Shown in pieces: positions 19,954-52,051 of a DNA stretch of 64,000 nucleotides. The DNA comes from Planctomycetota bacterium (GTDB lineage: Bacteria > Planctomycetota > Phycisphaerae > Phycisphaerales > UBA5793). The stretch is taken from assembly GCA_013112555.1 (NCBI GenBank), contig JABFGK010000001.1:2578581-2642580 (forward strand), written 5' to 3'. Position 1 is the first letter of the stretch; the number at the start of each line of letters is the position of its first letter. The notes below the pieces were generated by a model. The model was not told the origin of the DNA, did not search any database, and saw nothing but the letters and a program-made list of their open reading frames with translations. A program made the position numbers and the translations under genes.

Positions 19954-20090
19954 GATGAGGCTCCGGTTGGGACGAACGAACAGACCTTGCCAACTGGCCC
20001 GGACCGCGACGGATACCCACATCACCATTAATATAACTGATTCGGTCGATGATGGAAAGCCGATCAGAATACGAATCTCGGAATCGGCCG

Positions 20091-20138
20091 AAAAAAGAGA
20101 AACGGGCGAATGGCATCTTGCAGCCACTCGCCCGCTTC
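20091..20138 (-). terminator. Rho-independent terminator downstream of family A member 2
   Basis: Minus strand: CGGGCGAGTGGctgcaagatGCCATTCGCCCGTTTCTCTTTTTT. Confidence 0.6.
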
Positions 20139-20183: not shown

Positions 20184-20966
20184 TTAGATGTACGCCAGAT
20201 TGCTGACCTCGCAGGTGGACAGATTCACTGCCTGGACGACGACGCGGCCACATGCACCGGCCGGGACGCGGCCCCTGGCACAGAAGTCGCCGTTGGCGTC
20301 GGCATTGCCGCGAGCGGCTTCCTTGGCCCGCTGAATGCCAACATACAGGCCCGAGCAACCCGGGACGGGACCCGAGGAACCTTCAGCAAAACCGTAGGCG
20401 ATGACAATACGGTCGCCGGGGTTGGCACGATGCGCACAGGCCTCCATGGTGCCCGGGCAATCGCCGGTCGTATCGACGCTGAAGCCGGCTTCGCCGGTCG
20501 TCACGTCGTCCATGATGAAGTAGCCGAGATACCCGACGACATTGACGGAATCAATCGAGCCGGCATAGCCGCTGTCCAGCCACTGGCCGACGCCCGAGCC
20601 GTCAAGATCGATCACGGCGCTGGTGTGGACGAGGCTGCCGCCGCTGAACAGTTCCATGTAAATGGGGTCGAAGCCGTGACCCGTGCCGTAGCCGTTGAAG
20701 AAGGCTCCGTCAAACGTTACGTCGGCCGCAAAGTCGAACTGGCCGGTGCCACCGGTGGGATACACGCGGCAGGGCTCTGAACTCGGGTTGTACGGGGGCT
20801 GCGCCCAGTCATAGTACTGCCAGCCATACCAATTCGAAACACCGCCGTAGCCCGGAGGCACGGATGCCTGACCGACGAGATCATCAAAGTTGATCACATC
20901 AGCACTGGCCGACAGGCCCATCGCAAGAATGGCACCGGCGGCAACTGTCAAACAAGTCTTCTTCAT
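20184..20966 (-). CDS. Secreted protein, paralog family A (member 2)
   Basis: Signal peptide; INFDDLVGQASVPPGYGGVSNWYGWQYYDWAQPPYNPSSEPCRVYP...; GDCPGTMEACAHRANPGDRIVIAYGFAEGSSGPVPGCSGLYVGIQRAKEAA. Confidence 0.75.
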   Translation of the reverse strand: MKKTCLTVAAGAILAMGLSASADVINFDDLVGQASVPPGYGGVSNWYGWQYYDWAQPPYNPSSEPCRVYPTGGTGQFDFAADVTFDGAFFNGYGTGHGFDPIYMELFSGGSLVHTSAVIDLDGSGVGQWLDSGYAGSIDSVNVVGYLGYFIMDDVTTGEAGFSVDTTGDCPGTMEACAHRANPGDRIVIAYGFAEGSSGPVPGCSGLYVGIQRAKEAARGNADANGDFCARGRVPAGACGRVVVQAVNLSTCEVSNLAYI

Positions 20967-21222: not shown

Positions 21223-22017
21223 TTACGGAGTCGTTGCCACGTTCGTCTTCTCGCAGTTGTCAAGATCGACAGCCTGAACCAGCTTGTTGCAGAAGGCCGG
21301 CCCGCCGGACTTGTTGAACGAGAACTCGCCGTTGCCGTCAAGGTACACGAACAGGACGTCGTTCGGGTACGCACGCCAGGCGTCGGCCCGCGCGATGTCA
21401 ACGCTGATGCCGCAATTCGGGACCGGAGTCGTTCCGGCTGCGGTGCCATAGGCAAACGCGCACTTGGCGCCGGCAGCGCCGCCGGTGATCGCAACATCCA
21501 TGCTCCTGTTGCAGTCGCCGGTGATCTCGAGCGTGAAGCCGCCGCCACCATAGGTGAGATCATCCATGATGAAGTAGCCGTAGTACCCAACGACATTGAC
21601 GGAATCAACCGTGCCGGCATAGCCGCTGTCCAGCCACTGGCCGACGCCCGAGCCGTCAAGATCGATCTGCCCGCTCGTGTGAACGAGGCTGCCGCCGTTG
21701 TACATTTCCAAGTAAATCGGCAGGAAGCCATGACCCGTGCCGTAGCCGTTGAAGAAGGCTCCGTCAAACGTTCCCGCTGCGGCAAAGTCGAAGTTACCGA
21801 CGCCGACGGGATACACGCGGCAGGGCTCCGAACTCGGGTTGTACGGGGGCTGCGCCCAGTCATAATACTGCCAGCCATACCAGTTCGAGATTCCGCCGTA
21901 GCCCGGAGGCACGGATGCCTGACCGACGAGATCATCAAAATCCACGACGGTCTGACCGTGGGCACCAAACGTGAGGCCCAACAGGCCGGCTGCTAGAGCA
22001 ATTCCAAACTTCTTCAT
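21223..22017 (-). CDS. Secreted protein, paralog family A (member 3)
   Basis: VDFDDLVGQASVPPGYGGISNWYGWQYYDWAQPPYNPSSEPCRVYPVGVGNFDFAAAGTFDGAFFNGYGTGHGF; N-terminal module near-identical to member 2, C-terminal module diverged. Confidence 0.75.
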   Translation of the reverse strand: MKKFGIALAAGLLGLTFGAHGQTVVDFDDLVGQASVPPGYGGISNWYGWQYYDWAQPPYNPSSEPCRVYPVGVGNFDFAAAGTFDGAFFNGYGTGHGFLPIYLEMYNGGSLVHTSGQIDLDGSGVGQWLDSGYAGTVDSVNVVGYYGYFIMDDLTYGGGGFTLEITGDCNRSMDVAITGGAAGAKCAFAYGTAAGTTPVPNCGISVDIARADAWRAYPNDVLFVYLDGNGEFSFNKSGGPAFCNKLVQAVDLDNCEKTNVATTP

Positions 22018-32507: not shown

Positions 32508-33950
32508 ATGAAGACAATCAATGCAACGAGTCGAATGGTGACTGCCGGCCTGATCATGGCCGCTGGTGTCGTTTCAATCGCAGCCTGGACTTTCGGGGAG
32601 GCTGCTGCTGCCCGTGGGCCGGTCTCAGCCGACCCGGTCGGTGCCTCCATCCAGCAGCAGGAGCAGAAACTGCCAAAGCCGACCACCGGCCGCACCGACT
32701 GCACCTCCAGCCTGTGCCACGATGACAAACTCACCTACTCCATTATGCACGAGCCGGTCGAGAAAAAGGACTGCCTCAAGTGCCATGAGTATGTCGATGC
32801 CGAACGCCACCTGCTGCAACTGACGACCCCGCGCAACCTGCTGTGCTCGAAGTGTCACGGGGTCCAGCACCTCGGCTACGAGCACCAGCCGGTCAAAGAC
32901 GGCAACTGCCAGGGCTGCCACAATCCGCACGGCTCCGAGTTCCCGGGCCTGCTCGTGGACCACCCGACCCGCGGCTTGTGTCTCCAGTGCCACAACAAGG
33001 ACTTCGAGCACGAGAAGTATGTCCACGGCCCGGTCGCCGGCGGTGCCTGCATCGTCTGCCACGAGCCCCACTCCTCTCGCCAGGAGCACCTGCTCTCCAA
33101 AGAAGCAAACAAACTCTGCACGCAGTGCCACTTCGAGATCGAAACCGAACGGTCGCCCGGCCTGCACATCCACTCGGCCATGGACAAGGGATGCACGTCC
33201 TGCCACGATCCGCATGCCTCCGAACTCCGCTACCAACTCCACGAATCCACGCCGGACCTGTGCTTCCAATGTCACGAAAACATTGGTGAGACTGCAGAAC
33301 ATGCCGAATCACTCCATGCGATCATGGATCCGGGGGCCTGCACGAAGTGCCACAATCCTCACTCGTCACGACTTGCCAAACTGCAGAAACAAGTTCAGCC
33401 CGATCTCTGCCTCAACTGCCATGATGAGGCGATCGAGACGCCCGACGGCCGCACGCTGACGAACATGGCCCAGTTGCTCAAGGACAATCCGAGCCAGCAC
33501 GGGCCGATCCGCGAGGGGGCCTGCTCGGCCTGCCATCAGCCGCACTCCAGCGACAAGCAGAACCTGCTCCTGCTGTCCTACCCGCCCGAGTTTTATGCCC
33601 GCTTCGACATGGACCTGTACAAACTCTGTTTCAGTTGCCACATCCCGGAACTCGTTCTCAATCCGTCCGGCAAAGGGCTGACCGGGTTCCGCAACGGCAC
33701 GCTGAATCTGCATTGGCTCCATGTCAATCAGGAGAAGGGCCGCACCTGCCGCGCCTGCCACGAAGTCCATGCCTCGCAGCGCGACTTCCACATTCGCGAG
33801 TCCGTCCCCTTCGGCCCGACGGACTGGGAACTGGAGATCAACTTCGAGAAGTCCGGCAACGGCGGCTCGTGCAAGCCGGGGTGCCATCGGAAGGCCACCT
33901 ACGACCGGACAGCCGAAGTCGAGCCGAATACGAACGGGTCAGCCGGCTGA
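32508..33950 (+). CDS. Secreted multihaem c-type cytochrome (doubled CXXCH type), 13 CXXCH plus CX3CH and CX4CH
   Basis: 480 aa with signal peptide; CLKCH, CSKCH, CQGCH, CLQCH, CIVCH, CTQCH, CTSCH, CFQCH, CTKCH, CLNCH, CSACH, CFSCH, CRACH, plus CTSSLCH and CKPGCH. Confidence 0.93.
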   Translation: MKTINATSRMVTAGLIMAAGVVSIAAWTFGEAAAARGPVSADPVGASIQQQEQKLPKPTTGRTDCTSSLCHDDKLTYSIMHEPVEKKDCLKCHEYVDAERHLLQLTTPRNLLCSKCHGVQHLGYEHQPVKDGNCQGCHNPHGSEFPGLLVDHPTRGLCLQCHNKDFEHEKYVHGPVAGGACIVCHEPHSSRQEHLLSKEANKLCTQCHFEIETERSPGLHIHSAMDKGCTSCHDPHASELRYQLHESTPDLCFQCHENIGETAEHAESLHAIMDPGACTKCHNPHSSRLAKLQKQVQPDLCLNCHDEAIETPDGRTLTNMAQLLKDNPSQHGPIREGACSACHQPHSSDKQNLLLLSYPPEFYARFDMDLYKLCFSCHIPELVLNPSGKGLTGFRNGTLNLHWLHVNQEKGRTCRACHEVHASQRDFHIRESVPFGPTDWELEINFEKSGNGGSCKPGCHRKATYDRTAEVEPNTNGSAG

Positions 33951-36205: not shown

Positions 36206-37072
36206 ATGAGAGCAGCCAGCATCATTGTGTGTTTTTCAGTCGCCACGGCCCTGACGGCCGGGACAACCCTCGCCCAGGGACCGATCGACCTCGAGGACTT
36301 CTCCGGGAGCGAGCAGGTCATCACGTTCGCCCCCGGGTTTGCCTCCCAGTGTGCTCCCTTTGAGTACGAGGGGGTCGTCTTCTCGGAGAACGGTGGCGGA
36401 ACCGGCGGCCCGTGCTTCCGAGCCAACTCGGATTGGGGGAGCTTCTTCGACAACATCCCCGGTGCGTCGATAGGCCTCGGTTTCAACGATCAATGGGGGG
36501 ATTCGAGAATTGTCATGGAACTCCCGGCCGGCATGCGCCGGGTGGGATGCCTGCTGTCGACCTCGCCGGTCACGACCTGGACGATGGACCTGTATGACAG
36601 TAGCAGTACCCTCATCGGCTCTGACACTCGCGCCATGCCGAATACCTCGGAAGCGGTATTCATCGGGTACGAAACGGCGGCTGACATTGCCCGTGTCGAG
36701 ATCTGGGAGACAAACGGTGAGAATGGACACATCACGCTGATGGATGATGTCCGCTTCGAGGCGGTCGACGGCCTCAGGCTCGCCGTCACCGGTGACTGCC
36801 CCGGTACCATGGAAGCCTGTGCCTCCGGTGCCGCTCAGGGTGACAAAATCGTCATCATCTACTCGTTCAACTTCGGAAGCGCCGGACCGGTTCCCGGCTG
36901 CCCGGATCTCCTGACCGATCTGAAGGCACCGAAGGCAGCGGACTCCGGAACGGCCGATGCGACCGGGACATTCTGCACCTCCGGGCGCGTCCCCGGGAAT
37001 GCATGCGGGCGCGTGAAAGTACAGGCGATCAACCGAACGACGTGTGAGAAGTCGTCCGTGGTCGAAGTCTGA
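36206..37072 (+). CDS. Secreted protein carrying the family A C-terminal module on a different N-terminal domain (member 4)
   Basis: Signal peptide; GDCPGTMEACASGAAQGDKIVIIYSFNFGSAGPVPGCPDLLTDLKAPKAADSGTADATGTFCTSGRVPGNACGRVKVQAINRTTCEKSSVVEV aligns by eye with members 1 and 2. Confidence 0.75.
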   Translation: MRAASIIVCFSVATALTAGTTLAQGPIDLEDFSGSEQVITFAPGFASQCAPFEYEGVVFSENGGGTGGPCFRANSDWGSFFDNIPGASIGLGFNDQWGDSRIVMELPAGMRRVGCLLSTSPVTTWTMDLYDSSSTLIGSDTRAMPNTSEAVFIGYETAADIARVEIWETNGENGHITLMDDVRFEAVDGLRLAVTGDCPGTMEACASGAAQGDKIVIIYSFNFGSAGPVPGCPDLLTDLKAPKAADSGTADATGTFCTSGRVPGNACGRVKVQAINRTTCEKSSVVEV

Positions 37073-37403: not shown

Positions 37404-37720
37404 GTGAGAATATCAGTCTACAAAATACGTCATCGGCTGCCGGCGGTGCGACCAAGAGCTGCCCCAATGTGTGCCGGTCGATAACGCGGCCATCATAGTC
37501 CCAGCCCCCCACCCCGGGCCACCTCAGGGCCGATCCGGCGTCTTTTCGCCCCCAAATCGCCAAAACAGCCAAATGGTCCGCCCCTTCATGCGTCAAACCC
37601 TACAGCAGGGACGCGTTCGCCAAAGGACACGCAATCGACCCTGCCAGTGCCGATTCACACCCACACACACTGCGGGATGATGCGAACCACCCAAGCCGGC
37701 GACGATTGGAGAACCACACC

Positions 37721-40141
37721 ATGACCCCCAATACCCACCAGTTTCCAACTTCATACAGGCACAAAAGCCCCAGCAGCCGGCACCCGGGACGACTCGAAAC
37801 GACTCCAACCGCCTGCCTCTGGACCATCCTGCTGCTGACACTCCTCGGGCTGATGCCCATCCCGGCACTGGCCTCCGGGTTGCTGATCGTCGATACGCCG
37901 GGCGTCCCCCCGTTGCGCATCGTGGATCACTTCGTGCGGGCCGAGATCAGGGATCGTGTCGGGTACACGACCATCAAACAGACGTTCGAAAACACATCCG
38001 ACCAGCGACTGGAAGGGACGTACATCTTCCCGATCCCCGAAGGTGCTGACATCACCGACTTCCAGATGACCTTCAACGGCAAGATGGTCAAGGGCGAAGT
38101 GCTGCCGGCCAAAGAGGCCCGTGAGATATACGAGGCGATTGTCAGGCAGCAGCGCGACCCCGGGCTGATCGAGTTCATCGGCAATCGGCTGATGCGCTGC
38201 CGCATCTTCCCGATCGAACCGAAGTCCAAGACCGACATTCAGATCACCTACCAGCAGATTTGCGAGCCCATGTCGGGCATGTGGAAGTACCACTATCCGC
38301 TGCGGACGCCGGGCACGAACAGCTCGGTCTACGGCACACTCCGATTTGAAGTGAGCATCGAGAGCACCGAGCCGCTGCGCGGCGTGTGGTCCCCGACGCA
38401 TGACGTCGAAGTCGTCCGCCACGGCGATCACGAAGCGGTCGTGGCCTACGAAAAATCAGGCGGGAGTCTCGACAGCGACTTCCTGGTCATGTACGACTCC
38501 GAGGACTCGGACGTCGGCATGTCACTCGTGACTTATCGCGAAAACGAAGTGGACCCGGGCTACTTCCTGATGCTGCTGTGCCCGAAGCAACTGTGGGAAG
38601 ACCGGAAGCATGTGCCGCAGGATTACGTCTTTGTCGTTGATACCTCCGGCTCGATGGCCGGCGAGAAGATAGACCAGGCACGCGAGGCGCTGGCATACTG
38701 TGTGAACACGCTGGAAGACGGGGACCGGTTCTCAGTCGTGCGATTCTCAACCGGGTACGACCTGTTGTTTGATGAACTGCGTGACGCCTCGGCCGAGACT
38801 CGTAGGACGGCCTGTGACACGATCAAGAAGTACAACGCAACCGGCGGGACGAACATTTACGATGCGCTGAAGGCCGCAGCACAACTCAGGCCGGCTGACT
38901 CGGACCGGCCGTTCCTGGTCGTGTTCCTGACCGACGGCCAGGGCGAGCGATCGCGCGAAGACATTGAGGCCATGTTCAAGGAGGAAACCGGGTCGTATGC
39001 GAAGCATGTACGCCTCTTCCCGTTCGGTGTGGGGCACAATGTGAACACGAAACTGCTCGATGCACTGGGAACCGGCTTCGGCGGGGACCCGACCTATGTT
39101 CAGCCGGGTGAGAACCTGGAATACGTGCTCGGCGACTTCTTCTCGATCATGAGCGAACCGGTGTTGACGGATCTGCGGCTGTCGCTGCCGGATGCCATGA
39201 TCACCGACAAGTTCCCGACGGACCCGGGTGATCTGTATCACGGGCGTCAACTCGTGCTGGCCGGCCGATTTGACAAACCGGTCACAGGCGATGTGGTGCT
39301 CAAGGCCAGGCGCGGGAACGAAGACGTCGAGTACCGATGGGAAGGGATTGACTTCCAGTCAGATCGCTCGGCCCATTATGTGGCCGGCATCTGGGCCGGT
39401 CGGAAGATTGCATATCTGATTGATCGCATTCGTCTGGTCGGTGAATCGGACGAGTTGGTGAGTGAGATCCTTGCGTTATCGCAGCAATTCGGGATCCAGA
39501 CGCCGTACTCGAGTTGGCTGGTGAACCCGGAGGGCCGGCCGATGCCGGGACGCGGCCGCCGCACTGATGATCTGTTCCTCGGGCGACCGGCAGCAGCCGA
39601 GCAGCTGCAAAGACTGGCACCGATGGAGGAAATGGGCGCACCGGCCGATGCTGCCTCTGAGCCGGGACTCAGTAGTGGCAAGGGTGGCGAAGCCTTCTAC
39701 TTCGGTTCAGGCGGGGGCCGTGGCGGACGCAGTGTTCAGGATGCCGTGGCAGCCGAGAGCGGGGCCCTGGCTGCCCGCGTCTCCACACGAAACGCGCAGA
39801 TGCGCAAGGCTGACTCGCTTGATGAAGACGGCAAACTGAATCAGGCAGCGTTGGCCATGCGAACCATCGATGGTCGGGATTATCACAACATCAACGGGAT
39901 TCTGGTGGATTCCGCGTTCACGGATAAGTCAGAGGTCATCGAGATCAAGTTCGCTTCCGATGCGTACTTTGACCTCGTCATGAATCGCGAGGACCTGCGC
40001 AAGGCACTGTCTGCAGCGAAGTATGTGATCGTGATGGTCGGCGAGAATCGGGCCGTGTTTGTCCGCGATCAGGCCGGCCTGGAGACACTGACCGACAAGC
40101 AGCGGTCGACGATGTGGAAGATTGAGAAGCCTGACAAGTAA
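37721..40141 (+). CDS. VIT domain + VWA domain protein (inter-alpha-trypsin-inhibitor-like)
   Basis: VGYTTIKQTFENTSDQRLEGTYIFPIPEGADITDFQMTFNGKMVKGEVLPAKEAREIYE (VIT); DYVFVVDTSGSMAGEKIDQAREAL (MIDAS, VWA). Confidence 0.93.
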   Translation: MTPNTHQFPTSYRHKSPSSRHPGRLETTPTACLWTILLLTLLGLMPIPALASGLLIVDTPGVPPLRIVDHFVRAEIRDRVGYTTIKQTFENTSDQRLEGTYIFPIPEGADITDFQMTFNGKMVKGEVLPAKEAREIYEAIVRQQRDPGLIEFIGNRLMRCRIFPIEPKSKTDIQITYQQICEPMSGMWKYHYPLRTPGTNSSVYGTLRFEVSIESTEPLRGVWSPTHDVEVVRHGDHEAVVAYEKSGGSLDSDFLVMYDSEDSDVGMSLVTYRENEVDPGYFLMLLCPKQLWEDRKHVPQDYVFVVDTSGSMAGEKIDQAREALAYCVNTLEDGDRFSVVRFSTGYDLLFDELRDASAETRRTACDTIKKYNATGGTNIYDALKAAAQLRPADSDRPFLVVFLTDGQGERSREDIEAMFKEETGSYAKHVRLFPFGVGHNVNTKLLDALGTGFGGDPTYVQPGENLEYVLGDFFSIMSEPVLTDLRLSLPDAMITDKFPTDPGDLYHGRQLVLAGRFDKPVTGDVVLKARRGNEDVEYRWEGIDFQSDRSAHYVAGIWAGRKIAYLIDRIRLVGESDELVSEILALSQQFGIQTPYSSWLVNPEGRPMPGRGRRTDDLFLGRPAAAEQLQRLAPMEEMGAPADAASEPGLSSGKGGEAFYFGSGGGRGGRSVQDAVAAESGALAARVSTRNAQMRKADSLDEDGKLNQAALAMRTIDGRDYHNINGILVDSAFTDKSEVIEIKFASDAYFDLVMNREDLRKALSAAKYVIVMVGENRAVFVRDQAGLETLTDKQRSTMWKIEKPDK

Positions 40142-40623: not shown

Positions 40624-41208
40624 GTGACATCGATATCTGATCGGTGCGCACGGTCCACCGCCGTTATTTCCACGCAGATGGGTCCGGGGAGTATCTCCAT
40701 GTCGCGATCGATGGATCTGACCATCCGGCGCTTCGAGCGGAACGATATCGTTCTCGATGCGCTGCTGGAAGTCGATGAGTCGCAACGGGAGCAAGTGGTC
40801 TTCTCCTCGTCGAACCCACAGGCAGCGAATGCACATACCTTGAAGGTGACGCTGGCGGACGTGGGAGACGGCGGCGTCGGGATTCAGACGAGCGTCTTTC
40901 TGCCACGGGGCCTCAAGGCACGGGTCCGGGTGATGGCACCACGGCTGGAATCGCAGGATGGCGAGACGGCCAATCAGCGAGATCCTCAGGGTGAAGCGAC
41001 GACCGAGGTCTTGTTTGAGCATGGCGTTCAGGTCCGCCGGGTCGAACTGACCAGTCGGATTCCGACCTTCTTTATCGGCATGAGTTTCGAAAACGCTGCG
41101 CCTGACATGAGTCAGCAGGTTGAAGCATTCATGGCCAGGGCCAGTGAAGTGTTTCGCGCGGTCAACATGGCCAGGCTGGAGGCAATGGAGCGCGGCGATG
41201 TTGCATGA
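40624..41208 (+). CDS. PilZ-like domain protein (start possibly 40699)
   Basis: TLKVTLADVGDGGVGIQTSVFLPRGLKARVRV pattern; overlaps the start of the GspE/PilB gene. Confidence 0.4.
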   Translation: MTSISDRCARSTAVISTQMGPGSISMSRSMDLTIRRFERNDIVLDALLEVDESQREQVVFSSSNPQAANAHTLKVTLADVGDGGVGIQTSVFLPRGLKARVRVMAPRLESQDGETANQRDPQGEATTEVLFEHGVQVRRVELTSRIPTFFIGMSFENAAPDMSQQVEAFMARASEVFRAVNMARLEAMERGDVA

Positions 41209-42907
41209 CGGCTCTGAATTCCTCGAACGAGCCCTTGTTGAAGAGGGGCTGATCAAGCAGCAGCAACTCGAGGAGGCTCGCGCGCTGGCCGAGGAGGCGT
41301 CCTGCTCACTCGATGATGCGATCGTCACACTCGGGTTTGTGGACGGGCGACGGATCGCGCTGACCAAGGCACAGATCTGCGAAGCCCCGTTTGCCGATGT
41401 GACCCGCTTCGAGATCAACCAGAAAAACTGCTCCTGCATCCCCCGGGCGGTTGCCGAACAGCACAACGTCTTCCCATTGTTCGTCTTTGACAACGTCGTC
41501 ACGCTCGGAACGACCGACCCGCTCAACATTGCAGCGCTCGACCAGGTGCGGCAGATTGTCAAACGTGACGTCGATGCCGTCCAATGCGAAGCAAAGCCGC
41601 TGCGCGAGTTAATATCGAGAGCCTACAGCCTCTCGAGCGGCGTGACAGAGGAGTCGGCCTCTGACTCGGATGACGGGAAGGCGACGCGCGGGAGTTCGGA
41701 TCACGATGAGGAGACCGGGCCGATCGTCGCAGCCGTCAACACGCTGCTGAGCGATGCGATTGCCGTCGGTGCCTCAGACATTCACCTGAACCCGGATCAG
41801 CACGATCTCGTGCTGCGATTCCGTGTGGACGGTGTGCTGCAGAAGCGACAGGGACCGCCGCTGAGCATGCACCCGAAACTCGTCCAGCGATTCAAGGTCA
41901 TGTCGCAGTTGGACCTGACGCAGACGCGCCGGCCACAGGACGGCAAGTTCCGCTTTCACCACGGGGATCGGACGGTCGACGTTCGTGTGAGCATTCTGCC
42001 CACGATCACCGGCGAAAACGTCGTGCTGCGATTGCTCAATACACAGACCTCCATCCTCAGTTTCCGTGACCTCGGCCTGCCGACCGATGCCATCGAACGG
42101 CTGGACATGGTCCTGAAACAGCCATACGGCATGTTCCTCGTGACCGGCCCGACCGGGAGCGGCAAGACGACGACGCTGTACACGGCGTTGTCCAAGATGA
42201 ACACGCCGGATCGAAACATCATGACGATTGAGGATCCGGTCGAGGTGCGTCTCCCGCTGATTCGACAGATCCAGGTGAATGCTGACATCAACCTCACGTT
42301 TGCGACCGCACTGCGGTCCATTCTGCGTCAGGATCCCGATGTCATCCTGGTGGGTGAGATTCGCGATCTCGAAACGGCCACGATTGCCCTGCAGGCATCG
42401 CTGACCGGCCATTTCGTCCTCAGTACGTTGCATACGAATGACGCCCCGAGTGCGGTGGCGCGTTTGCGCGACTTCGGGCTGCCGCCGTTTGTCATCAACT
42501 CGGCATTGCTGGGCGTGATGGCTCAGCGTCTTGTCCGCCGTGTCTGTGAGCACTGCTCGCAGCCGGCCGAGATCGATCCCGTCCTGGCTCGCTACTTCCA
42601 GATTGAAGATCAATCCGGCTTTATTGAAGGGAAGGGGTGCGGGCGCTGTCTGCAAAGCGGCTTCAAGGGGCGCCTCGGCGTGTATGAACTCATGCAGGTC
42701 GACCCCGGCGTGCAGCGGGCCGTGGCCGAAGGACTCCCGACAGAACACATTCGCAAAGCATCCATCGAGGGTGGCATGCGCCTGATGTGGCAGGACGGTC
42801 TCGAGAAAGCACAACTCGGCCTCACGACACTCTCTGAAGTGTCCAAAATGGTCTCCGTCACAGCCATCGAAGAGGTGACCGAACCGATGTTGAAGGAGAG
42901 CGCATGA
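41198..42907 (+). CDS. gspE: GspE/PilB-family secretion/pilus assembly ATPase
   Basis: VTGPTGSGKTTTLYTAL, MTIEDPVEVRLPLIRQIQVN, ILRQDPDVILVGEIRDLETATIALQASLTGHFVLSTLHTNDA, CXXC zinc site CEHC...CGRC. Confidence 0.97.
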   Translation: MLHDGSEFLERALVEEGLIKQQQLEEARALAEEASCSLDDAIVTLGFVDGRRIALTKAQICEAPFADVTRFEINQKNCSCIPRAVAEQHNVFPLFVFDNVVTLGTTDPLNIAALDQVRQIVKRDVDAVQCEAKPLRELISRAYSLSSGVTEESASDSDDGKATRGSSDHDEETGPIVAAVNTLLSDAIAVGASDIHLNPDQHDLVLRFRVDGVLQKRQGPPLSMHPKLVQRFKVMSQLDLTQTRRPQDGKFRFHHGDRTVDVRVSILPTITGENVVLRLLNTQTSILSFRDLGLPTDAIERLDMVLKQPYGMFLVTGPTGSGKTTTLYTALSKMNTPDRNIMTIEDPVEVRLPLIRQIQVNADINLTFATALRSILRQDPDVILVGEIRDLETATIALQASLTGHFVLSTLHTNDAPSAVARLRDFGLPPFVINSALLGVMAQRLVRRVCEHCSQPAEIDPVLARYFQIEDQSGFIEGKGCGRCLQSGFKGRLGVYELMQVDPGVQRAVAEGLPTEHIRKASIEGGMRLMWQDGLEKAQLGLTTLSEVSKMVSVTAIEEVTEPMLKESA

Positions 42908-44109
42908 GCGTTGCCTCATTCCAATACGAAGCGCTCACCGCAGACGGCGAAGTGCGCCAGGGCCTGACGAAGGCTGAGAACTGGCACGATGCGTATCGGC
43001 AGCTGGCCTCTGCAGGCCTGTCACCGATCACGATCTCACCGGAGAAGAAACGTCGATTCGGACGGCGCAAAAAGCGAATCTCACTGCGCGACCTGAGCCT
43101 GTTTACCTATCAATTCTCCGTGCTGATGGAGGCACGCCTGCCGATCTCCGAGGGTCTGCGCTCCATAGCAGAAGAGGAAACGCACGAGTCGCTCAAGGAG
43201 ATGGTGCTTGATATTGCTTCGCACATTGAGGCCGGCAGCACCGTCACCGATTCGCTGAAGCCCTACGAACATGTGTTCGGCGACGTCTATCTCGAAACGA
43301 TCCATGCAGCAGAGCAGAGCGGCAACATGGTGGCCGTGCTCGAGCATCTGTCCAAGATGCTTGATCAGGAAGTTGAGCGTCGGGCCTCGATTCGCTCGGC
43401 GTTGATCTACCCGCTGTGCGTCGTGTCAGCGCTGCTGTTGGCGGTCGTGTTTCTGATGATCTTTATCGTGCCCCGGTTTACGAAGATGTTCACCGAGCGC
43501 GACGTGGCATTGCCGTTGCCGACCAAACTGCTGATCGGGACGAGCCAGTTCATGATCAGTTACTGGTGGCTCGGTCTGATTCTGGTTATTGGATGTGCAA
43601 TGCTTCTCAAACAGATTCTTTCGATGCCTCAAGGGCGCGCGCTGGTTGACCGATATCTGTTTCGAATTCCAGTGGTCAGTCGCGCGCTGCAGGCCGCGGC
43701 GTTGGCGCGCTTCGCTCACGTCTTCAGCCTGTCACTGTCAAGCGGTCTGAGTCTGATCGATTGTCTGGAAATGAGTGGGCGGGCATCGGGGCGACCGTTG
43801 CTAATGCGTGATGCAAACTATCTGGCCGCACAGGTCGCCCAGGGCGGCCGCCTGGCTGATGCGCTGCCGCGGTGTGAGTACATCACCCGATTCGCACGTC
43901 GTCTCATCAGTGCCGGCGAGCAATCGGCAGAGATGCCGCGCATGTGCGGGATTATCGCTCGGCACTATGACCGGGAGGTGAGGTATCTCACAAAGAATGT
44001 GGCCACGATCATCGAGCCAATCCTGGTGCTCGTGCTGGCCTGCGTCGTGCTGTTTATTGCACTGGCCGTGTTCCTGCCCATGTGGAACATGATGAGCATT
44101 ATGGGATAA
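42904..44109 (+). CDS. gspF: GspF/PilC-family inner membrane protein
   Basis: FTYQFSVLMEARLPISEGL, ...LRSAL-type repeat, three TM segments, ATGA overlap with gspE. Confidence 0.95.
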   Translation: MSVASFQYEALTADGEVRQGLTKAENWHDAYRQLASAGLSPITISPEKKRRFGRRKKRISLRDLSLFTYQFSVLMEARLPISEGLRSIAEEETHESLKEMVLDIASHIEAGSTVTDSLKPYEHVFGDVYLETIHAAEQSGNMVAVLEHLSKMLDQEVERRASIRSALIYPLCVVSALLLAVVFLMIFIVPRFTKMFTERDVALPLPTKLLIGTSQFMISYWWLGLILVIGCAMLLKQILSMPQGRALVDRYLFRIPVVSRALQAAALARFAHVFSLSLSSGLSLIDCLEMSGRASGRPLLMRDANYLAAQVAQGGRLADALPRCEYITRFARRLISAGEQSAEMPRMCGIIARHYDREVRYLTKNVATIIEPILVLVLACVVLFIALAVFLPMWNMMSIMG

Positions 44110-44297
44110 GGCACTGCGCCGTGGCGTGGTGCTTCAGTCGACCGCTCACCATGCGTCGTTCAGGTGAGTGAGCGAGCGAGAGCGCAAATGAACGACAGAG
44201 GCGGAAGCGGTCCTTCGCGCCTGACCCGACTGCATGAGGGTAGGCCGGACCACGTCTTCACATCGAGAATCGTACTTGTCAGATAAAGGAGTACATC

Positions 44298-44720
44298 ATG
44301 CAGAGACACCGTGAACATCGATCATACGCATTTACGCTGATCGAACTCGTGGCCGTGATCATCGTGCTGGCCATTCTCTCGGGCGTGGCATTGCCGAAGT
44401 TCTTCGACTACTCGGCCAAGGCCAAGGAATCGGCATGCAAGGGTGCACTGGGTGGCGTCCGCGCTGCCGTGGCAAACTTCTATGCCAATGCCGCCATCAA
44501 CGGCTCGCCTGCCTACCCATCCCTGTCCGAGGTACAGTCGGTCGGCTCGGTGATGCAGGAGACGATTCCGGATAACCCGTACAACGGCTCCAACTCGATT
44601 TCGGCAGCCACCTATGACGCGTCCGACCCACCGGTCAGCGGCAGTGCCGGCTGGAACTATGACGCCAGCAGCGGCCGATTCTGGGCCAATTCGGATAACG
44701 TCGGCGAGAATGAGTGGTAA
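44298..44720 (+). CDS. GspG-type pseudopilin
   Basis: YAFTLIELVAVIIVLAILSGVALPKFFDYSAKAKESACKGALGGVRAAVANFY. Confidence 0.92.
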   Translation: MQRHREHRSYAFTLIELVAVIIVLAILSGVALPKFFDYSAKAKESACKGALGGVRAAVANFYANAAINGSPAYPSLSEVQSVGSVMQETIPDNPYNGSNSISAATYDASDPPVSGSAGWNYDASSGRFWANSDNVGENEW

Positions 44721-44864
44721 AGCGCGACGACCGAGCGCTGCAGGACGATCTCCCGCATCGCGCAACGCGTCTGCGCTTGAATACGCCACGCCACGCCATG
44801 AGTCGGTGTTGACCGCCTGTCTGTCTACGACTGACGTGGGTCAACACCAGGATCGGAGCAGGTC

Positions 44865-45464
44865 GTGCGTTCACCGACGGATGACACTCAGGCCTTGCGC
44901 TGCGCCGTGACGCGCTGCGTGCCGGCCTCTCGATCAACGGTGAGTCTCCCCCCGCCCGGTTGCGGCCGGTCCGGGTTCACGCTCATCGAGTTGGTCGCCG
45001 TCATGGTGATGGTCTCGATCGTCGGGCTCGTCGTGATTGTGCCGAGCATGTCCGATCTGACAACCAGTAGACAGTCCGGCGCTGCCACCCGCGTTTTGCA
45101 TGACATCCATGCAGCACGACAGCGGGCCATGGCCCGGGGAACACGGCTCTGGGTCGTGTTTGACGCCGACTCAGATCGCTACGACGTGTACGTGGAGCCG
45201 GCAGGCTCACCGGGTCGCGCCAATCGCATCCCGCTGGTCGATCCGGCCACCGGGAACGAAGTCGGACTGCAACTCAACGAGTGGCCGTATGCCGGCAGCG
45301 GGATCGATGCGATCGACGTGGCCGGGGGGACCGAAATCGGATTTGACTACCTGGGCCGGGCCCTAACCGAAGGCGAGCAGATCCTCACCCAGGACGGAAC
45401 AGTCACGCTGACCGGTGGGCATACGCTCACCATCGCAGCACGGACGGGTCATGTATACGAGTAA
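44865..45464 (+). CDS. GspH-type pseudopilin (start may be GTG 44940)
   Basis: GFTLIELVAVMVMVSIVGLVVIVPSMSDL. Confidence 0.88.
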   Translation: MRSPTDDTQALRCAVTRCVPASRSTVSLPPPGCGRSGFTLIELVAVMVMVSIVGLVVIVPSMSDLTTSRQSGAATRVLHDIHAARQRAMARGTRLWVVFDADSDRYDVYVEPAGSPGRANRIPLVDPATGNEVGLQLNEWPYAGSGIDAIDVAGGTEIGFDYLGRALTEGEQILTQDGTVTLTGGHTLTIAARTGHVYE

Positions 45465-45489
45465 CATACAACTCGGAGCCGGCCCTCCC

Positions 45490-45912
45490 GTGAGCAGACT
45501 CGATCGGCGTCGCGCCTTTACGTTGATCGAGACGATCGCGGCCGTGGTCGTATTGGCTATTGCAATCCCCCCACTGCTGCTGACTGCACGGCGAGCCACC
45601 ATTGATTCGGTCACGCCGATCATGTTCTCACGCGCCCGTTGGTTGGCCGTGGAAAAACTCGAAGATGTGATCGGCGACCGCCACAGCCCCCAGCGCGGGT
45701 ATGACTATCTCAGTTCGGGCAACTACCCAGCGGAGGACCCCGTCACGTCGGACCCGGGCTTCTCGCGCTCCGTGCAACTCAGTGAAACCGGGGCCGACCT
45801 GCAGACTCCCGGAACCGGATACATGACCGTGACGGTCACCGTCAGTTGGACTGATGCAACCGCAACCGTCCGCTCGCTGCAAATCGGAACCGTTCTGACA
45901 GAGTATGAATAA
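45490..45912 (+). CDS. GspI-type pseudopilin (start may be ATG 45451)
   Basis: RAFTLIETIAAVVVLAIAIPPLLLTARRATIDS. Confidence 0.85.
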   Translation: MSRLDRRRAFTLIETIAAVVVLAIAIPPLLLTARRATIDSVTPIMFSRARWLAVEKLEDVIGDRHSPQRGYDYLSSGNYPAEDPVTSDPGFSRSVQLSETGADLQTPGTGYMTVTVTVSWTDATATVRSLQIGTVLTEYE

Positions 45913-45914
45913 CG

Positions 45915-46481
45915 ATGTCACACAGCCGAACAGACCGACGACTCCGCCTCTCGGCTTCGGGGTTTACCCTCGTGGAGACGATTGCCGTCATCACGGTGCT
46001 GGCCGTGATCGGGTCGATGGTCTCGATGCTGCTGCTGACTTCGAGTACGGGGTATCACGACGCCTCGGTCCAGGGACAGTTGCATGTGGAGACAAGCAGC
46101 GCTCTGGATCGGGTCGTTCGTGAGTTTCGGCAAATCGAGGCTGTTGATGATGGGCAAGGCAGCCTGATGCCGGATATTACATCGGCTGCAGAGAATGCCA
46201 TTGCCTGGTCCACGGACAGCAGCCTGAGTGTGAACGGCGATCAGCAGTTGATTCTGCGGCTCGGCGGCACCGACTCCGTCCTCGCAACCGATGTCACTGC
46301 ACTCGCACTGGACTACCTTGATGGAACCGCCTCCTCGTTGCTCTCGGGAGGGCAGGTCCCCAACGGCAGTCTGCCCGACATCCGCAGACTGTCGATCAGC
46401 CTGACGGTCACACGCAGCGGCTTGAGCGACACACTCCACACGCGCCTGTTCCTGCGGTCCGTCATGGAGGGCACAGGATGA
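45915..46481 (+). CDS. GspJ-type pseudopilin
   Basis: SGFTLVETIAVITVLAVIGSMVSMLLLTSSTG. Confidence 0.85.
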   Translation: MSHSRTDRRLRLSASGFTLVETIAVITVLAVIGSMVSMLLLTSSTGYHDASVQGQLHVETSSALDRVVREFRQIEAVDDGQGSLMPDITSAAENAIAWSTDSSLSVNGDQQLILRLGGTDSVLATDVTALALDYLDGTASSLLSGGQVPNGSLPDIRRLSISLTVTRSGLSDTLHTRLFLRSVMEGTG

Positions 46482-46894
46482 GACACGAGAATCAACACGA
46501 TCTGCACAACACCCGCCGGAGCCGTGGGGCCGTCATTGCGGCCGTCGTCGTCCTGCTGCTGGCTGCCAACATTGCCATCATCGGCTTTGCGCTGACGGTC
46601 ACGTCGGATCAATCAATCGCCGTCGATCGGCTCGACACCGTCCGCGCGTTCTATGCCGCCGAGGCCGGCGTCAGCATGGCCGTCCGTGAACTGATGTTAA
46701 GTGAAGATGAGGATGGGGACGGCTCGATCGGTTCGATCTCAGACGACGGGAATCCGGATAATAACCCAACCCTCCCTCAGGCCAGTGTCGTCGTGACCGT
46801 CAGCACCGGCGGCGGGAGCGACGTGACGCTGACAAGCACCGGCTCAGCCGGCCAGTCACGACGCAGCCTGGAAGCGTTACTGAGTTCGTCCTAG
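46478..46894 (+). CDS. GspK/PilX-like minor pilin
   Basis: RGAVIAAVVVLLLAANIAIIGFALTVTSDQSIAVDRLDTVRAFYAAEAGVSMAVREL; ATGA overlap. Confidence 0.75.
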   Translation: MRHENQHDLHNTRRSRGAVIAAVVVLLLAANIAIIGFALTVTSDQSIAVDRLDTVRAFYAAEAGVSMAVRELMLSEDEDGDGSIGSISDDGNPDNNPTLPQASVVVTVSTGGGSDVTLTSTGSAGQSRRSLEALLSSS

Positions 46895-47138
46895 TGCGCG
46901 GTTACGTCAGGGAGAGAACAAACGCGTGGTTATCGGGTGCCTGTGCCATATCACAGCGTCACACAGGGAAACTTGTAGTGACTGATGGGTTCCGGACAAG
47001 CCGACTGACGTCACCGCGATCAATCCGGTGATCAGTCCATCCGAAGTGACCGATCGAGTTTGAGATTCTGAAGCCGGTGCGTTCGTGGGAGCAGGCCGGC
47101 GGCCGAGTGAGTCGTGATCCAGCCGTTGGGAGACTACC

Positions 47139-48827
47139 GTGAATCGTATCCGTCAATCACATACAGATGCTCGCACTACCTTCCACCCGGGTATTCAGGC
47201 ACTTCTGTACCTGGTTTTTGTCGTGGCCTGGTTGATGTTCCCGCAGACACAGCACGCCGCATCGTCCCCGATTGCATCGGAGGCTGTGTTCATCTCGCTG
47301 GCTCATGCAACAGGTGGCAGCATCGTTGTGTCCGCGATGGATGATGACGATGACGATGATGACGACAAGGACAAGGGCAAGAAGAAGGACCACGACGACG
47401 ACGACGATGATGACGACAAGGACAAGGGCAAGAAGAAGGACCACGACGACGACGATGATGACGGCAAGGGCAAGGGCAAGAAGAAGGGCCACGACGACGA
47501 CGATGATGACGACGATGACCATGATGGCCATGGTGACGACGAGGGTGATGACGAGGGTGATGACGAGGGGGAATCCGACGGCGGCGTCACCCTCTACGTT
47601 CGTACCAGTGGCAGCGATTCGAATAACGGGTTGACACCCGAGACCGCATTTGCCTCCATTCAGAAGGCGGTCAACTCCTGCACCGGCGACGGCTACACCA
47701 TCTACGTCGGGCCCGGCACCTACCACGAAACCGTGGAAGTCGGGTACGGCGGCGGCAAGGCTGCCAAGAGCGGCGAGAAAGGAAGCCTCAACCGGATCAT
47801 CGGTGACAAGGGCGGCACCAAGACCGGCGATCCTGCCGGCTCCGTCATCGTGGATGGTGATGGGAGCAAGAACTGGGGCATTCTCGTCTATGAACGGGAC
47901 TACTGGTCCATTCACACCATGACCGTCAAGGGCTTCCGCTCATACGGAATCTACTGTGGGCTCGGAGAGGGCCAGGAGGTCCATGGATGTACCGTCTATA
48001 TGGACGGCTACTACGGGATTCTCTCCGTCTACGGCGTGGATGCCAAGATCTGCAACAATCGCCTGTACCGGGGGACGCGCGGGTATTACATGATCTATGC
48101 CTATGCGTCCGGCGGCACCGTCCTCGTCGACAGCAACCGGTTCAACCAGACCGGCGATGCGTACCTGGCGTGTGGGTATGGCGACGGCTACTGGTCCCAG
48201 AACAGATATAACAACTCGTATTATTACTATGGGATTCTGGCTTACTCCTACCCCAAGAGTGATACAAAACTCATCGTGACGAACAACATCGGCAGCGATG
48301 TCCTCTACGGCATCTATGCGTACAGTTACAAGAAGGACCACTCAGACATCACGATCGCGCATAATGTGCTCAGCGGCTGCTACTACGGGATGTATACTTA
48401 TTGCTATGCCGGCGAGATGCTGCTGGCTGACAATGTCATCACCGACTCCTACGTCGGGATCATGTCGCAGGACCACAAAGGCTCGACGCGAATCAGCGGC
48501 CTGCTGACGAACAATATTACATTCAAGCCGGTCTGGCTGCGCGGAAAGAAGAATGTCGAAGGGCACATCGACGGGCAGGACCCGATGTGGGTGGATGCAG
48601 CCTCCGGCAACTTCCTCCCACAGCCCGGTTCACCGGCAATCGACGGCGGCCTGGGCGTGGCAGGCATCAACATCGACATCCGCGACCTCTCACGGCCGAT
48701 CGACGGCGATCGAGACGGTCTGGCCGGCTACGACCTCGGCGCGTACGAGTATGACCCGGTCTCCGACGGGGCCTCGGCACCGGTCATCGTCATGTGGCGA
48801 GAAGTAGACAGCGAGACGACTGACTAA
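47139..48827 (+). CDS. Secreted right-handed parallel beta-helix protein with Asp/Lys-rich repeat region
   Basis: Signal sequence, D/K block repeats, then GVTLYVRTSGSDSNNGLTPETAFASIQKAVNSCTGDGYTIYVGPGTYHETV (DUF1565-like) and Tyr/Gly-rich rungs. Confidence 0.85.
   Translation: MNRIRQSHTDARTTFHPGIQALLYLVFVVAWLMFPQTQHAASSPIASEAVFISLAHATGGSIVVSAMDDDDDDDDDKDKGKKKDHDDDDDDDDKDKGKKKDHDDDDDDGKGKGKKKGHDDDDDDDDDHDGHGDDEGDDEGDDEGESDGGVTLYVRTSGSDSNNGLTPETAFASIQKAVNSCTGDGYTIYVGPGTYHETVEVGYGGGKAAKSGEKGSLNRIIGDKGGTKTGDPAGSVIVDGDGSKNWGILVYERDYWSIHTMTVKGFRSYGIYCGLGEGQEVHGCTVYMDGYYGILSVYGVDAKICNNRLYRGTRGYYMIYAYASGGTVLVDSNRFNQTGDAYLACGYGDGYWSQNRYNNSYYYYGILAYSYPKSDTKLIVTNNIGSDVLYGIYAYSYKKDHSDITIAHNVLSGCYYGMYTYCYAGEMLLADNVITDSYVGIMSQDHKGSTRISGLLTNNITFKPVWLRGKKNVEGHIDGQDPMWVDAASGNFLPQPGSPAIDGGLGVAGINIDIRDLSRPIDGDRDGLAGYDLGAYEYDPVSDGASAPVIVMWREVDSETTD
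47349..47520 (+). repeat. ~48-51-bp tandem repeat encoding D(6-9)-KDKGKKK-DH
   Basis: gacaaggacaagggcaagaagaaggaccacgac at 47364 and 47415, variant near 47463. Confidence 0.85.
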
Positions 48828-49073
48828 GCCCACGGCTGGCCGTGCGAACGTGCGTACCCGGCGCTTCGGGTACTTCTGAATGACGTACTGTGGCGGCCCG
48901 GCGCTGCCGATCGCCGGTGCAGGTGATTTCAGTGATTCACGGTCCTCCTGCAAGCCCGGAATCTGCCCCGGTTGCCGGTCGGGATACCGAAGGGGCAGCC
49001 CGAATGAGCCGATATCTGATGTGCAATCGATTCATTGTGACGAATATCGCAGATCGGGCAGGCGGAATGAACC

Positions 49074-50768
49074 ATGCGTCGTACCAGTCCTCTCTTCATT
49101 AATCTGACCGATAAGACGATCGAGTTTGCCGTGCCGGGAGGTGGGGCCGGGTCCGCATTATCGGTCCAGGTGGACCTGCCGGATGAGGCAAATGCGTGGA
49201 TCGGCTCGGTTCCCGAACTGGCACCGGTCATCATGGAGGCAGCACAATCGCTCGGCATTGAACATGCCTGCGTGAGCCTGGCCTATGACAGCCCATCACT
49301 GACGACACAGCTGGTCAGTCAGGCAGCCGGGAGCGAAGGCCAGGCGGCCACCGCGGCGCGCCTGGCCAGTGCATCGGGAGCCCACTACGGAACCTCTCCC
49401 TCGGTGACTGATGCGTGTGTAATCGGAATCGACGCTGCGGATCACACCGGTACCAATGAGAATGCGCCGAACAAGTACCATGTCGTGGCCGCGACCGATC
49501 GCCAGGCAGCATGCGAGGCACTCGTCTCATTGATCGAGCGCTGCGGCTGGACGCTGCAGCAACTCATCTCACTGGACTCGTTCGTCGTCAGCCGGGAGGC
49601 TCGCACCTCGCTGGCCCACCACTCGCCGGCCCCGCTGGCACGACTCTACCTCGGGCGCCGACACTCCGTCCTGTCAGTCGGGTGTGCCGGCCGCTTGCGT
49701 TTGTTCAGACGAATCGGATTCGGAATCGATCTGCTTGCCGAGGCACTGTGCAAGCCCATCCCGCTCGGGCACGACGGGCAACGGGAGGCACAACTGGAAT
49801 GGGCCCAGGCACTCGATCTACTCTATACCCAGGGGCTTCCATCGCGTGACACCGAAGTGTGCCAAGGCACGGAGGTCAAGGGCTATCACGTCCTGCCTCT
49901 AATTCAGCCCGTGTTGCAGCGCTTGCTCGTCGAACTGAAGCAGTCCCTGCGTTTCGGATTAAACGAGTTCGAACCAAGCGACATACAAGGCGTCCTGACC
50001 GGGCCCGGAGCGTACGTGGACGGCGTGGCAGGACTGCTCAGTGAGAGCACCGGCATCGATTTCCAGGCGTCGCCGTCGGAGGACGAGTCACGCGAACCCG
50101 AGAACCCAGCCTGGAACGCCTACTCGTTCGGGCAGTTCGTATCCGATGCCGACGACACCGAGACACCGAACCTGCTGCCACCGTCGGCAATTTCACGGGT
50201 CACCGCTCGACGCATTCGCTACGGCCTCGCTGCCGGGTGTGCCGCCGCCGTCATCCTCATCGGGGCCGACACCTTCCGACTCAATCACGCGATTGCCTCG
50301 GCTCGTGTGCAACTTGAACAAGCGGTACAGTCCAATGAAAACCTGACGGCCATGGACGACCTGCGACAGCAGGTGATCGAAAACAACGGCCGGCTGCAGG
50401 CACTCAACAATCAGATGGCCGAAACATACCTGTTCCGAGTCGACTGGGCTGCCGGCATCAAGGAACTGACTCGACTCGCGCCGCCCGAGATCAAACTGAT
50501 TCAAATCGACGCCGGGGCTGACGACGCCGAGAAGGCCGAGGCAGGGTACATGACCGTCCATGCCTACTCGCTCGGCCCATCCGATGATGAAGTGATTCAG
50601 CAATACATTACAAGACTCTCCGACAGCGCGCTGTTTGCATCAGTCAGAATCGGCCCGGTGCAGAAGGTGAACCTGGATGGGACCAGCGCTCGCCGCTTCA
50701 GTGTGGAGACTCGGTTGAGTGCCGTCGATCGGGGCGAGACAGCGCCGGCAACCGACAGTGATCAGTAG
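49074..50768 (+). CDS. PilM-like + PilN-like (GspL-type) fusion protein
   Basis: N-terminal actin-like/PilM-like region; C-terminal TM (IRYGLAAGCAAAVILIGADTF) followed by PilN-like IKELTRLAPPEIKLIQIDAGA. Confidence 0.7.
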   Translation: MRRTSPLFINLTDKTIEFAVPGGGAGSALSVQVDLPDEANAWIGSVPELAPVIMEAAQSLGIEHACVSLAYDSPSLTTQLVSQAAGSEGQAATAARLASASGAHYGTSPSVTDACVIGIDAADHTGTNENAPNKYHVVAATDRQAACEALVSLIERCGWTLQQLISLDSFVVSREARTSLAHHSPAPLARLYLGRRHSVLSVGCAGRLRLFRRIGFGIDLLAEALCKPIPLGHDGQREAQLEWAQALDLLYTQGLPSRDTEVCQGTEVKGYHVLPLIQPVLQRLLVELKQSLRFGLNEFEPSDIQGVLTGPGAYVDGVAGLLSESTGIDFQASPSEDESREPENPAWNAYSFGQFVSDADDTETPNLLPPSAISRVTARRIRYGLAAGCAAAVILIGADTFRLNHAIASARVQLEQAVQSNENLTAMDDLRQQVIENNGRLQALNNQMAETYLFRVDWAAGIKELTRLAPPEIKLIQIDAGADDAEKAEAGYMTVHAYSLGPSDDEVIQQYITRLSDSALFASVRIGPVQKVNLDGTSARRFSVETRLSAVDRGETAPATDSDQ

Positions 50769-50789
50769 ACGAAAGAACAAGCCGAAAGC

Positions 50790-51437
50790 GTGGGCAATAT
50801 GGGTGGCGACACCATACGTGAACTTGGATCCTTCGGGCTGATCGCAGCGGCCGTCACGGTCGGCGGCGTCGTGCAGTTTCTGTTCCCGAAGATGAGCGAA
50901 CTGCAAACGACGCAGGCTCAGATTCAACAGATCAATGCGGACGAGGGCGCAAACGCCGGACCGAGTGCCGATGTGCAGGCCCGGGCTGACCACATTCGGG
51001 ACCGGGTTCGCATGGTGAACGAACTGAATCACAAGACAGGTGATACGCGCGTGCTGTATCAACTCCTGCTCCAACTGGCCGAATCCCACGGGGTCGAATA
51101 CGAGAGCATCCAGCCGCAGGAGCAGAGCAAGGCCGAACCAAACTCGAAACAGGTCAGAACAACAGCCTTCCGACTCGCCTGGGTCTCAGACCTGCCATCA
51201 ACCGGCCATATGCTTGAAGACCTGGATGCGTGCGGGATCCCACATCGGGTGGCCAACCTGCATCTGCTCCCGATCAAACAGGATGACATCACCGTGGTGT
51301 CAGTCAGCATGCAGGTTGAGTTCCTGCACTATCCGATAGTCCCGATGCTGGCTGCGATGGCCGAACTCAACGAGTCGGGCGAGCCGGGGAATGACCCAAT
51401 GCCGCCGGCAGCCACGGGGCAGGGAGGTGGCATATGA
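50790..51437 (+). CDS. PilO/GspM-like protein
   Basis: Short N-terminal TM (FGLIAAAVTVGGVVQFLF), coiled coil, then PilO-like C-domain LLLQLAESHGVEYESIQP. Confidence 0.65.
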   Translation: MGNMGGDTIRELGSFGLIAAAVTVGGVVQFLFPKMSELQTTQAQIQQINADEGANAGPSADVQARADHIRDRVRMVNELNHKTGDTRVLYQLLLQLAESHGVEYESIQPQEQSKAEPNSKQVRTTAFRLAWVSDLPSTGHMLEDLDACGIPHRVANLHLLPIKQDDITVVSVSMQVEFLHYPIVPMLAAMAELNESGEPGNDPMPPAATGQGGGI

Positions 51438-52051
51438 GTTTCATATCACTGCAACCTGCTGCAAAGATGAAACTGGGGACGGCCGCTGCCGTGATCGGCC
51501 CGGTGGTGCTGGTGCTGTTTACGAAACTGCTCGGGATGGGCCCGGGGCATGTTCAGGGAGGAGAGCAGGGAGATGGCAATGCCACGGCCGGCGAAGCAGC
51601 CCTCACGGGTGTCGCTCACAATGTCACACAAGAGTTGCGCTGCGATGCGACGCACGAGGCGGGAACCGCTGCGCAAGCACTGCGACATGAAGCCTTCCCG
51701 CAGGATCCCTTCTATTTGACCGGGATGTTCGGGGGCGACCCGAGCGAAATGCCGGTCCCGACTCCCGACCTGGGTGCAGGCAACCAGCGCTTCTCAATAT
51801 CCGGGTTCATCAGCGGCTCAAGACCGATGGCCGTGATCAACGACCAGGTCTGCACTATCGGGCAAACGGTCACAGCCGAGCGCTTTCAATGGACGGTCGA
51901 GGCCATCGACTGCGAAAAACGCACCGTCACACTGCGCGGCTCAGATGGCAAATCATTCGTCGTTGAAGCCGATGAACAGGGAACACGCAGCCCGGGACGA
52001 AGAACGCCTGCACAAAACGACAACGGCCCACCCACGATGCCAATCCCATAA
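51434..52051 (+). CDS. GspC/PilP-like protein of the secretion operon
   Basis: N-terminal TM; GFISGSRPMAVINDQVCTIGQTVTAERFQWTVEAIDCEKRTVTLRGSDGKSFVVEA; ATGA overlap with the PilO-like gene. Confidence 0.55.
   Translation: MSFISLQPAAKMKLGTAAAVIGPVVLVLFTKLLGMGPGHVQGGEQGDGNATAGEAALTGVAHNVTQELRCDATHEAGTAAQALRHEAFPQDPFYLTGMFGGDPSEMPVPTPDLGAGNQRFSISGFISGSRPMAVINDQVCTIGQTVTAERFQWTVEAIDCEKRTVTLRGSDGKSFVVEADEQGTRSPGRRTPAQNDNGPPTMPIP

Follow-up and report, generated by a model that had tools for sequence, protein, structure and literature searches.

A C-terminal module of about 90 residues was found in at least 150 copies in the 4.55-Mb genome that contains the stretch of DNA analysed here (64 kb in its entirety, hereafter the window), and with a little more confidence than doubt we regard it as a targeting or anchoring domain on Sec-exported proteins. 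This reading is based in part on the finding that the module stands where close relatives place PEP-CTERM-like or dockerin-like tags, and it is most likely interchangeable with these known C-terminal tags.

The window encodes four copies of the module. One is located in the gene at 36206–37072 (+ strand), which, according to the open reading frame list, encodes a putative exported protein of 288 amino acid residues. The protein was divided into a probable Sec signal peptide, MRAASIIVCFSVATALTAGTTLAQ (36206–36277, +), assigned by reading the translation and by a signal-peptide heuristic applied over the tagged set; a passenger domain (36278–36766, +), assigned by blastp grouping and modelled with low confidence; and the C-terminal Ig-like module, or tag (36767–37069, +), assigned by genome searches and AlphaFold2 prediction. 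The other three copies are in related tandem genes on the − strand at 19.1–22.0 kb, namely 19159–20127 (module, 19162–19464), 20184–20966 (module, 20187–20489), and 21223–22017 (module, 21226–21519), the last of which carries the most divergent module. The 36206–37072 protein had no match above the cut-off in Pfam and NCBIfam, with a sub-threshold match in the former and none in the latter. Its full-length model had a mean pLDDT of 55 and was of low quality beyond the module, and its passenger was grouped by blastp with three others from this genome (C2:1111623, C2:1112787, and C2:837372). Directly downstream of this gene, 37706–40141 encodes a protein with VIT and VWA domains and without the module. 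A multihaem cytochrome, encoded at 32508–33950, contains six paired CXXCH stretches.

An earlier note on this DNA had described the C-terminus of the 36206–37072 protein as shared with that of the 20184–20966 protein and the N-terminal domains as unrelated. The quoted C-terminus is present at the end of the former frame, and the two proteins, whose genes are about 15 kb apart, share it with 55% identity over 111 residues (E = 7e-32). The statement on the N-terminal domains holds at the sequence level, because they belong to separate blastp groups (E < 1e-4) and hhalign of the 36206–37072 domain against those of the tandem trio gave a match of only 38 columns, at the edge of the domain (prob. 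88, E 3e-6), which takes in the first strand of the module; the domains may still have a common fold.

When the whole 36206–37072 protein was searched against its own genome, 88 matches were obtained at E ≤ 0.01, nearly all of them on its last ~100 residues. A profile (A1) made of 81 own-genome modules from these matches then gave the figure of at least 150 copies, for which 150 of 310 candidates were scored (weakest E, 2.7e-16); three weaker copies beyond these (L210, L211, and L213) were also confirmed. With this number of copies, the sharing of the C-terminus is not a matter of chance. Plasmids were also searched with one of the distant modules, with no match. The placement of the module was read from the DNA around all 150 matches, translated to the stop codon. 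The module ended 0–11 residues ahead of the stop codon in 149 of the 150 copies and exactly at it in 64. Modules fetched from 12 genomes of eight other families of the phylum (f61, f10, f23, f54, f37, f41, f31, and f71) all ended 0–16 residues ahead of the stop codon (30 of 30), so that C-terminal placement is the rule beyond the genome under study. The modules occur singly, without arrays. In the single exception, C1:1725563 (L029, 1246–2784), the module directly follows the signal peptide and precedes 332 further residues with a sub-threshold match to Peptidase_C39_2 in Pfam; this protein could be an enzyme for which the module serves in docking.

A signal-peptide-like start was detected by a home-made heuristic in 134 of the 139 tagged frames that are complete upstream, compared with 105 of 247 control frames, among which are spurious frames. 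The passengers of 146 tagged proteins formed 58 sequence-distinct groups by single linkage (blastp, E < 1e-4); the largest, with 36 members, consists of HAF-repeat proteins, and 42 groups are singletons. Since the passengers were cut at the start of the profile, which leaves the first strand of the module on them, groups may have been merged by this procedure and cannot have been split. The families recognised among 64 representatives in Pfam and NCBIfam included subtilase, M14 and M28 peptidases, FG-GAP, HAF, CHRD, PQQ and BNR propellers, beta-helix, laminin-G, glucose/sorbosone dehydrogenase, and choice-of-anchor B and O. The name "choice-of-anchor" is used at NCBI for proteins that occur with alternative C-terminal anchors. 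Identity of at least 60% was found for 131 module pairs, of which 30 bridge different passenger groups, and the identity across such groups reaches 84%. Modules move between passengers, with similar copies found on unrelated ones. Two tandem genes (L054, C2:1239657–1240638; frames of 126 and 130 residues) encode little beyond a signal peptide and one module, and these stand-alone modules are perhaps natural competitors for a receptor. The earlier note had read the shared C-terminus as a sorting or anchoring tag, for which strictly C-terminal placement, set as a test beforehand, and many different partner domains were expected; both were found, and the reading is well supported by the placement in the own genome and the other families and by the 58 passenger groups.

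All six genomes of the family to which the source genome belongs had at least 149–150 module matches each. In the rest of the order, the module was found in none of 55 genomes (61 genomes of the order were searched, including the six of the family). In a sample of the phylum, 48 of 294 genomes gave a match, including six genomes of family f61 with at least 17 matches each. For the comparisons described below, a set of 30 genomes was used, consisting of the six own-family genomes, 15 tag-less relatives from the order, the six f61 genomes, and three other tag-bearing genomes.

The HAF-repeat passengers provided a direct view of the exchange of tags. A HAF-repeat profile (A8) was searched in 25 tag-less relatives of the order, 15 of which had matches at E ≤ 1e-10. 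Fetching 30 of the 47 matched loci yielded 28 closed, unique frames, and the sister genomes of the own family likewise yielded 28; open frames were left out of both sets. The module was present on 27 of the 28 HAF passengers of the sister genomes and on none of the 28 of the tag-less relatives. By inspection and pattern, the C-termini of the latter were PEP-CTERM-like in 11 frames, dockerin-like in 14, and neither in three. These classes were confirmed only in part, because the family models match fewer of the frames: library scans of the same 28 frames found Dockerin_1 in nine, the GC-type dockerin in nine, and PEP-CTERM in four (Pfam) or three (TIGR02595). The own genome has 48 HAF-repeat propeller matches, which represents a large expansion. 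Among the 39 of these that were listed and examined, 36 were tagged, including one frame-split gene, and three lacked the module; 32 of the tagged ones adjoin a module of the top 150, three carry weaker modules, and one has it in the second piece of the frame-split gene. The strongest evidence that the module, the PEP-CTERM-like tails, and the dockerin-like tails may do comparable work is that all three are carried by one kind of passenger.

The GC-type dockerin was counted in the same set of 30 genomes. Five tag-less relatives (G002, G034, G251, G270, and G278) had at least 139, at least 139, 71, 69, and 52 copies, respectively, and the other ten had none. The own genome had none, its five sister genomes had 0, 0, 2, 0, and 0, the six f61 genomes had none, and one of the three other tag-bearing genomes had a single copy. 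The GC-type dockerin and the module are thus nearly mutually exclusive in the genomes compared. Within the order, the GC-type dockerin is used en masse in genomes of f2 and f5, and the genomes tested from f3 and f4 had none. Within one order, therefore, the secreted proteins of some families, fifty to a hundred or more of them, end in a dockerin, and those of another end in the module. For a family of freshwater planctomycetes, a cohesin-dockerin complex outside cellulose degradation, the "planctosome," has been put forward (PMC6461901).

The four modules of the window were predicted by AlphaFold2 to form an Ig-like sandwich of eight strands (mean pLDDT 94.7, pTM 0.85). In 149 aligned copies, G61, Q80, and P70 were conserved at 99%, 99%, and 91%, respectively. 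Three pairs of cysteines covary in these copies: C39 and C87 are both present in 112, singly in one, and absent in 36; C5 and C74 in 54, one, and 94; and C12 and C64 in 10, one, and 138, respectively. Such pairs are what disulfides would give, and this covariation among related copies points to a module that would fold outside the cytoplasm. The module can do without disulfides, because 36 of the 149 copies are without the C39–C87 pair and 21 are without any cysteine.

Searches for relatives of the module gave no significant result. The 81 modules had no match in Pfam better than E 0.02, with single matches only, and PDB sequences, searched with a profile, gave nothing under E 0.049. Foldseek against the PDB gave no match at E ≤ 0.001, the best being neocarzinostatin-type proteins (E 3.5e-3). 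The module resembles neocarzinostatin, macromomycin, and other Ig or Fn3 domains in overall fold, with weak profile similarity, and differs from them in its context and in the lack of significant sequence homology; membership in the neocarzinostatin family was rejected, the profile search reaching only E 0.31–0.62. The top rows of VIA-align were Fn3 domains of PelI and Pel3 (Z 9.8–9.1; 2.2 Å over 81 residues at Z 9.8), with Z scores within 1 of those of unrelated Ig domains. In a literature search of titles and abstract openings, with most subscription papers outside its coverage, the module was undescribed.

Three known kinds of C-terminal tag were compared with the module. The 36206–37072 protein had no match above the cut-off, and the 81 modules none, to the models of the type A C-terminal domain (CTD) of the type IX secretion system (T9SS; PF18962 and TIGR04183). 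The module and the T9SS CTD share an outline, since the T9SS CTD is described as an Ig-like sandwich of ~80 residues at the C-terminus of many unrelated cargoes with a Sec signal peptide (PMC4804311 and PMC10202324), and the module, too, is predicted to be an Ig-like sandwich, placed strictly at the C-terminus of proteins with a signal peptide; the module differs in having no sequence match and up to three covarying cysteine pairs. No solved T9SS CTD was noticed among the Foldseek and VIA-align matches listed (50 rows for Foldseek). The T9SS CTDs are described as confined to Bacteroidota (PMC10202324). The PEP-CTERM tag of the exosortase system is also a C-terminal tag of many Sec-exported proteins and is found in the same order on the same HAF passengers, whereas the module lacks the PEP motif, the transmembrane segment, and the basic tail, its folded domain runs to the stop codon, and none of the 81 modules matched the PEP-CTERM models. 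The GC-type dockerin (NF041540) and dockerin I are small C-terminal modules that occur on the same passengers, with copy numbers from 52 to at least 139 in some of the sister families; they consist of EF-hand-like repeats, in contrast to the beta sandwich of the module, and no match to the duplicated EF-hand-like segment (PF00404/NF041540) was found among the modules. The module is thus likened to the T9SS CTD or the dockerin in position and use, and by the tests run it is a member of neither.

Candidate partners of the module were sought by genome distribution. The window contains an operon resembling those of type II secretion systems (T2SS) and type IV pili (41120–52051, +), in which Pfam and NCBIfam searches give GspE/PilB-like, GspF, prepilin-like, and beta-helix proteins and which also includes the protein encoded at 49074–50768. 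From their position and by eye, the proteins starting at 49074, 50790, and 51434 look like GspL/M/C types, without family matches. Close to its N-terminus, the beta-helix protein (47139–48827) contains long low-complexity stretches rich in Asp. Pfam and NCBIfam recognised no secretin in this operon, and five secretin matches are located elsewhere in the genome. Secretins were found in all 30 genomes, whether the tag was present or absent. The 49074–50768 protein was detected in five of the six own-family genomes, one of the 15 tag-less relatives, one of the three other tag-bearing genomes (G003, E 8.7e-5), and none of the six tag-rich f61 genomes, in which divergence could conceal homologs. 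An exosortase was found in all six own-family genomes, all 15 tag-less relatives, two of the six f61 genomes, and all three other tag-bearing genomes; with exosortases in every tag-less relative and none found in four of the tag-rich f61 genomes, it was rejected as the partner of the tag. SprA_N was found in none of the 30 genomes, and the 14 control genomes were silent as well (0 of 14). Neither the secretins, nor the 49074–50768 protein, nor the exosortase follows the distribution of the tag in the 30 genomes. An approach suited to finding such a partner is the comparison of whole gene sets, by which EpsH was tied to PEP-CTERM (PMC1569441).

The earlier note had suggested that the tag is served by the operon at 41–52 kb. 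The genome distribution does not bear this out, given that secretins were found in all 30 genomes and the 49074–50768 protein was undetected in the f61 genomes, and the operon was rejected as the main idea for the partner. The note had also named occurrence of the module in genomes without the secretion system as evidence against its reading; this was observed in part, for this operon only, because the 49074–50768 protein was undetected in all six tag-rich f61 genomes. That the module recruits its passengers to a T2SS, notably the one encoded by this operon, is accordingly the least probable of the readings considered here and only a slim chance. The presence of the operon in the window and the VIA-align matches to the pectate lyases PelI and Pel3 speak for it, the T2SS secretion signal of Pel3 being described as loop regions, one of them in its Fn3 domain (PMC7949064). 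The likeness was not taken as evidence of T2SS secretion, because the Z scores tie with those of unrelated Ig domains; moreover, secretins occur regardless of the tag, the operon has no recognised secretin, and the 49074–50768 protein, undetected in f61, is present in a tag-less relative. Scarcely more probable is an ordinary accessory Ig-like domain that binds or stabilises, with glycans, matrix proteins, or small ligands as its targets, and is C-terminal by habit without being a sorting signal. It would agree with the Ig-like fold, with the ligand-binding neocarzinostatin family as the nearest Foldseek match (E 3.5e-3), and with the two genes that consist almost purely of a signal peptide and the module. 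Accessory domains are, however, commonly internal, N-terminal, or in arrays as well, whereas these modules are single, C-terminal in all but one of 150 copies, and occupy the position that PEP-CTERM-like and dockerin-like tags have in relatives.

An unlikely reading, which nonetheless deserves more weight than these two, is that the module is a signal for outer-membrane translocation by a dedicated machine, possibly removed after export, and so the counterpart of the T9SS CTD in another phylum. It is in keeping with the outline of the T9SS CTD, a Sec signal peptide plus a C-terminal Ig-like sandwich of seven strands (PMC4804311 and PMC10202324), and with the strict C-terminal placement, many copies, and patchy distribution of the module. 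Against it, searches of Pfam, NCBIfam, and PDB sequences gave no T9SS CTD match, and the tag-less sister families carry the same passengers on other tags; since the same passengers bear other tags elsewhere, a tag-specific machine seems unneeded for export as such. Several points also speak against the preferred reading of the module as a tag for targeting or anchoring: no partner gene was found among the candidates compared, many of the traits could be shared by a generic binding domain, some copies lack the C39–C87 pair or any cysteine, one copy is N-terminal, three of the 39 HAF matches are untagged, and two genes are nearly stand-alone modules.

If the module is a targeting or anchoring tag, the preprotein would cross the inner membrane via Sec, and the module would fold, with formation of its disulfides, outside the cytoplasm. 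The folded module would then be recognised by a partner in the outer membrane, on the cell surface, or in the matrix, and the passengers would thereby be held at, or brought to, the cell surface. Since dockerins act through binding, and since neither a cleavage motif nor a transmembrane segment nor a basic tail is seen in the module, stable docking would be favoured over cleavage and covalent linkage. As a tentative extension, somewhat short of an even chance, the module may represent an undescribed sorting route with a receptor or translocon of its own, which in one family took the place of the PEP-CTERM and dockerin tags of the sister families on at least 150 proteins.

At least 150 genes of one 4.55-Mb genome end in a domain that has no entry in the family libraries used. 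If this domain is a sorting or anchoring tag, it would define the surface proteome of a whole family at once and provide a common label for more than 50 groups of secreted proteins, and its receptor would be expected as a gene family that shares the distribution of the module. The sister families offer a clean comparison, with the same passengers on other tags. The nearly exclusive use of either the module or the GC-type dockerin within one order raises the question of how a lineage swaps the tag on more than 100 proteins. If a new sorting route is involved, a lineage would be able to swap its C-terminal tags all together, much as if the whole cell surface were given a new postal code.
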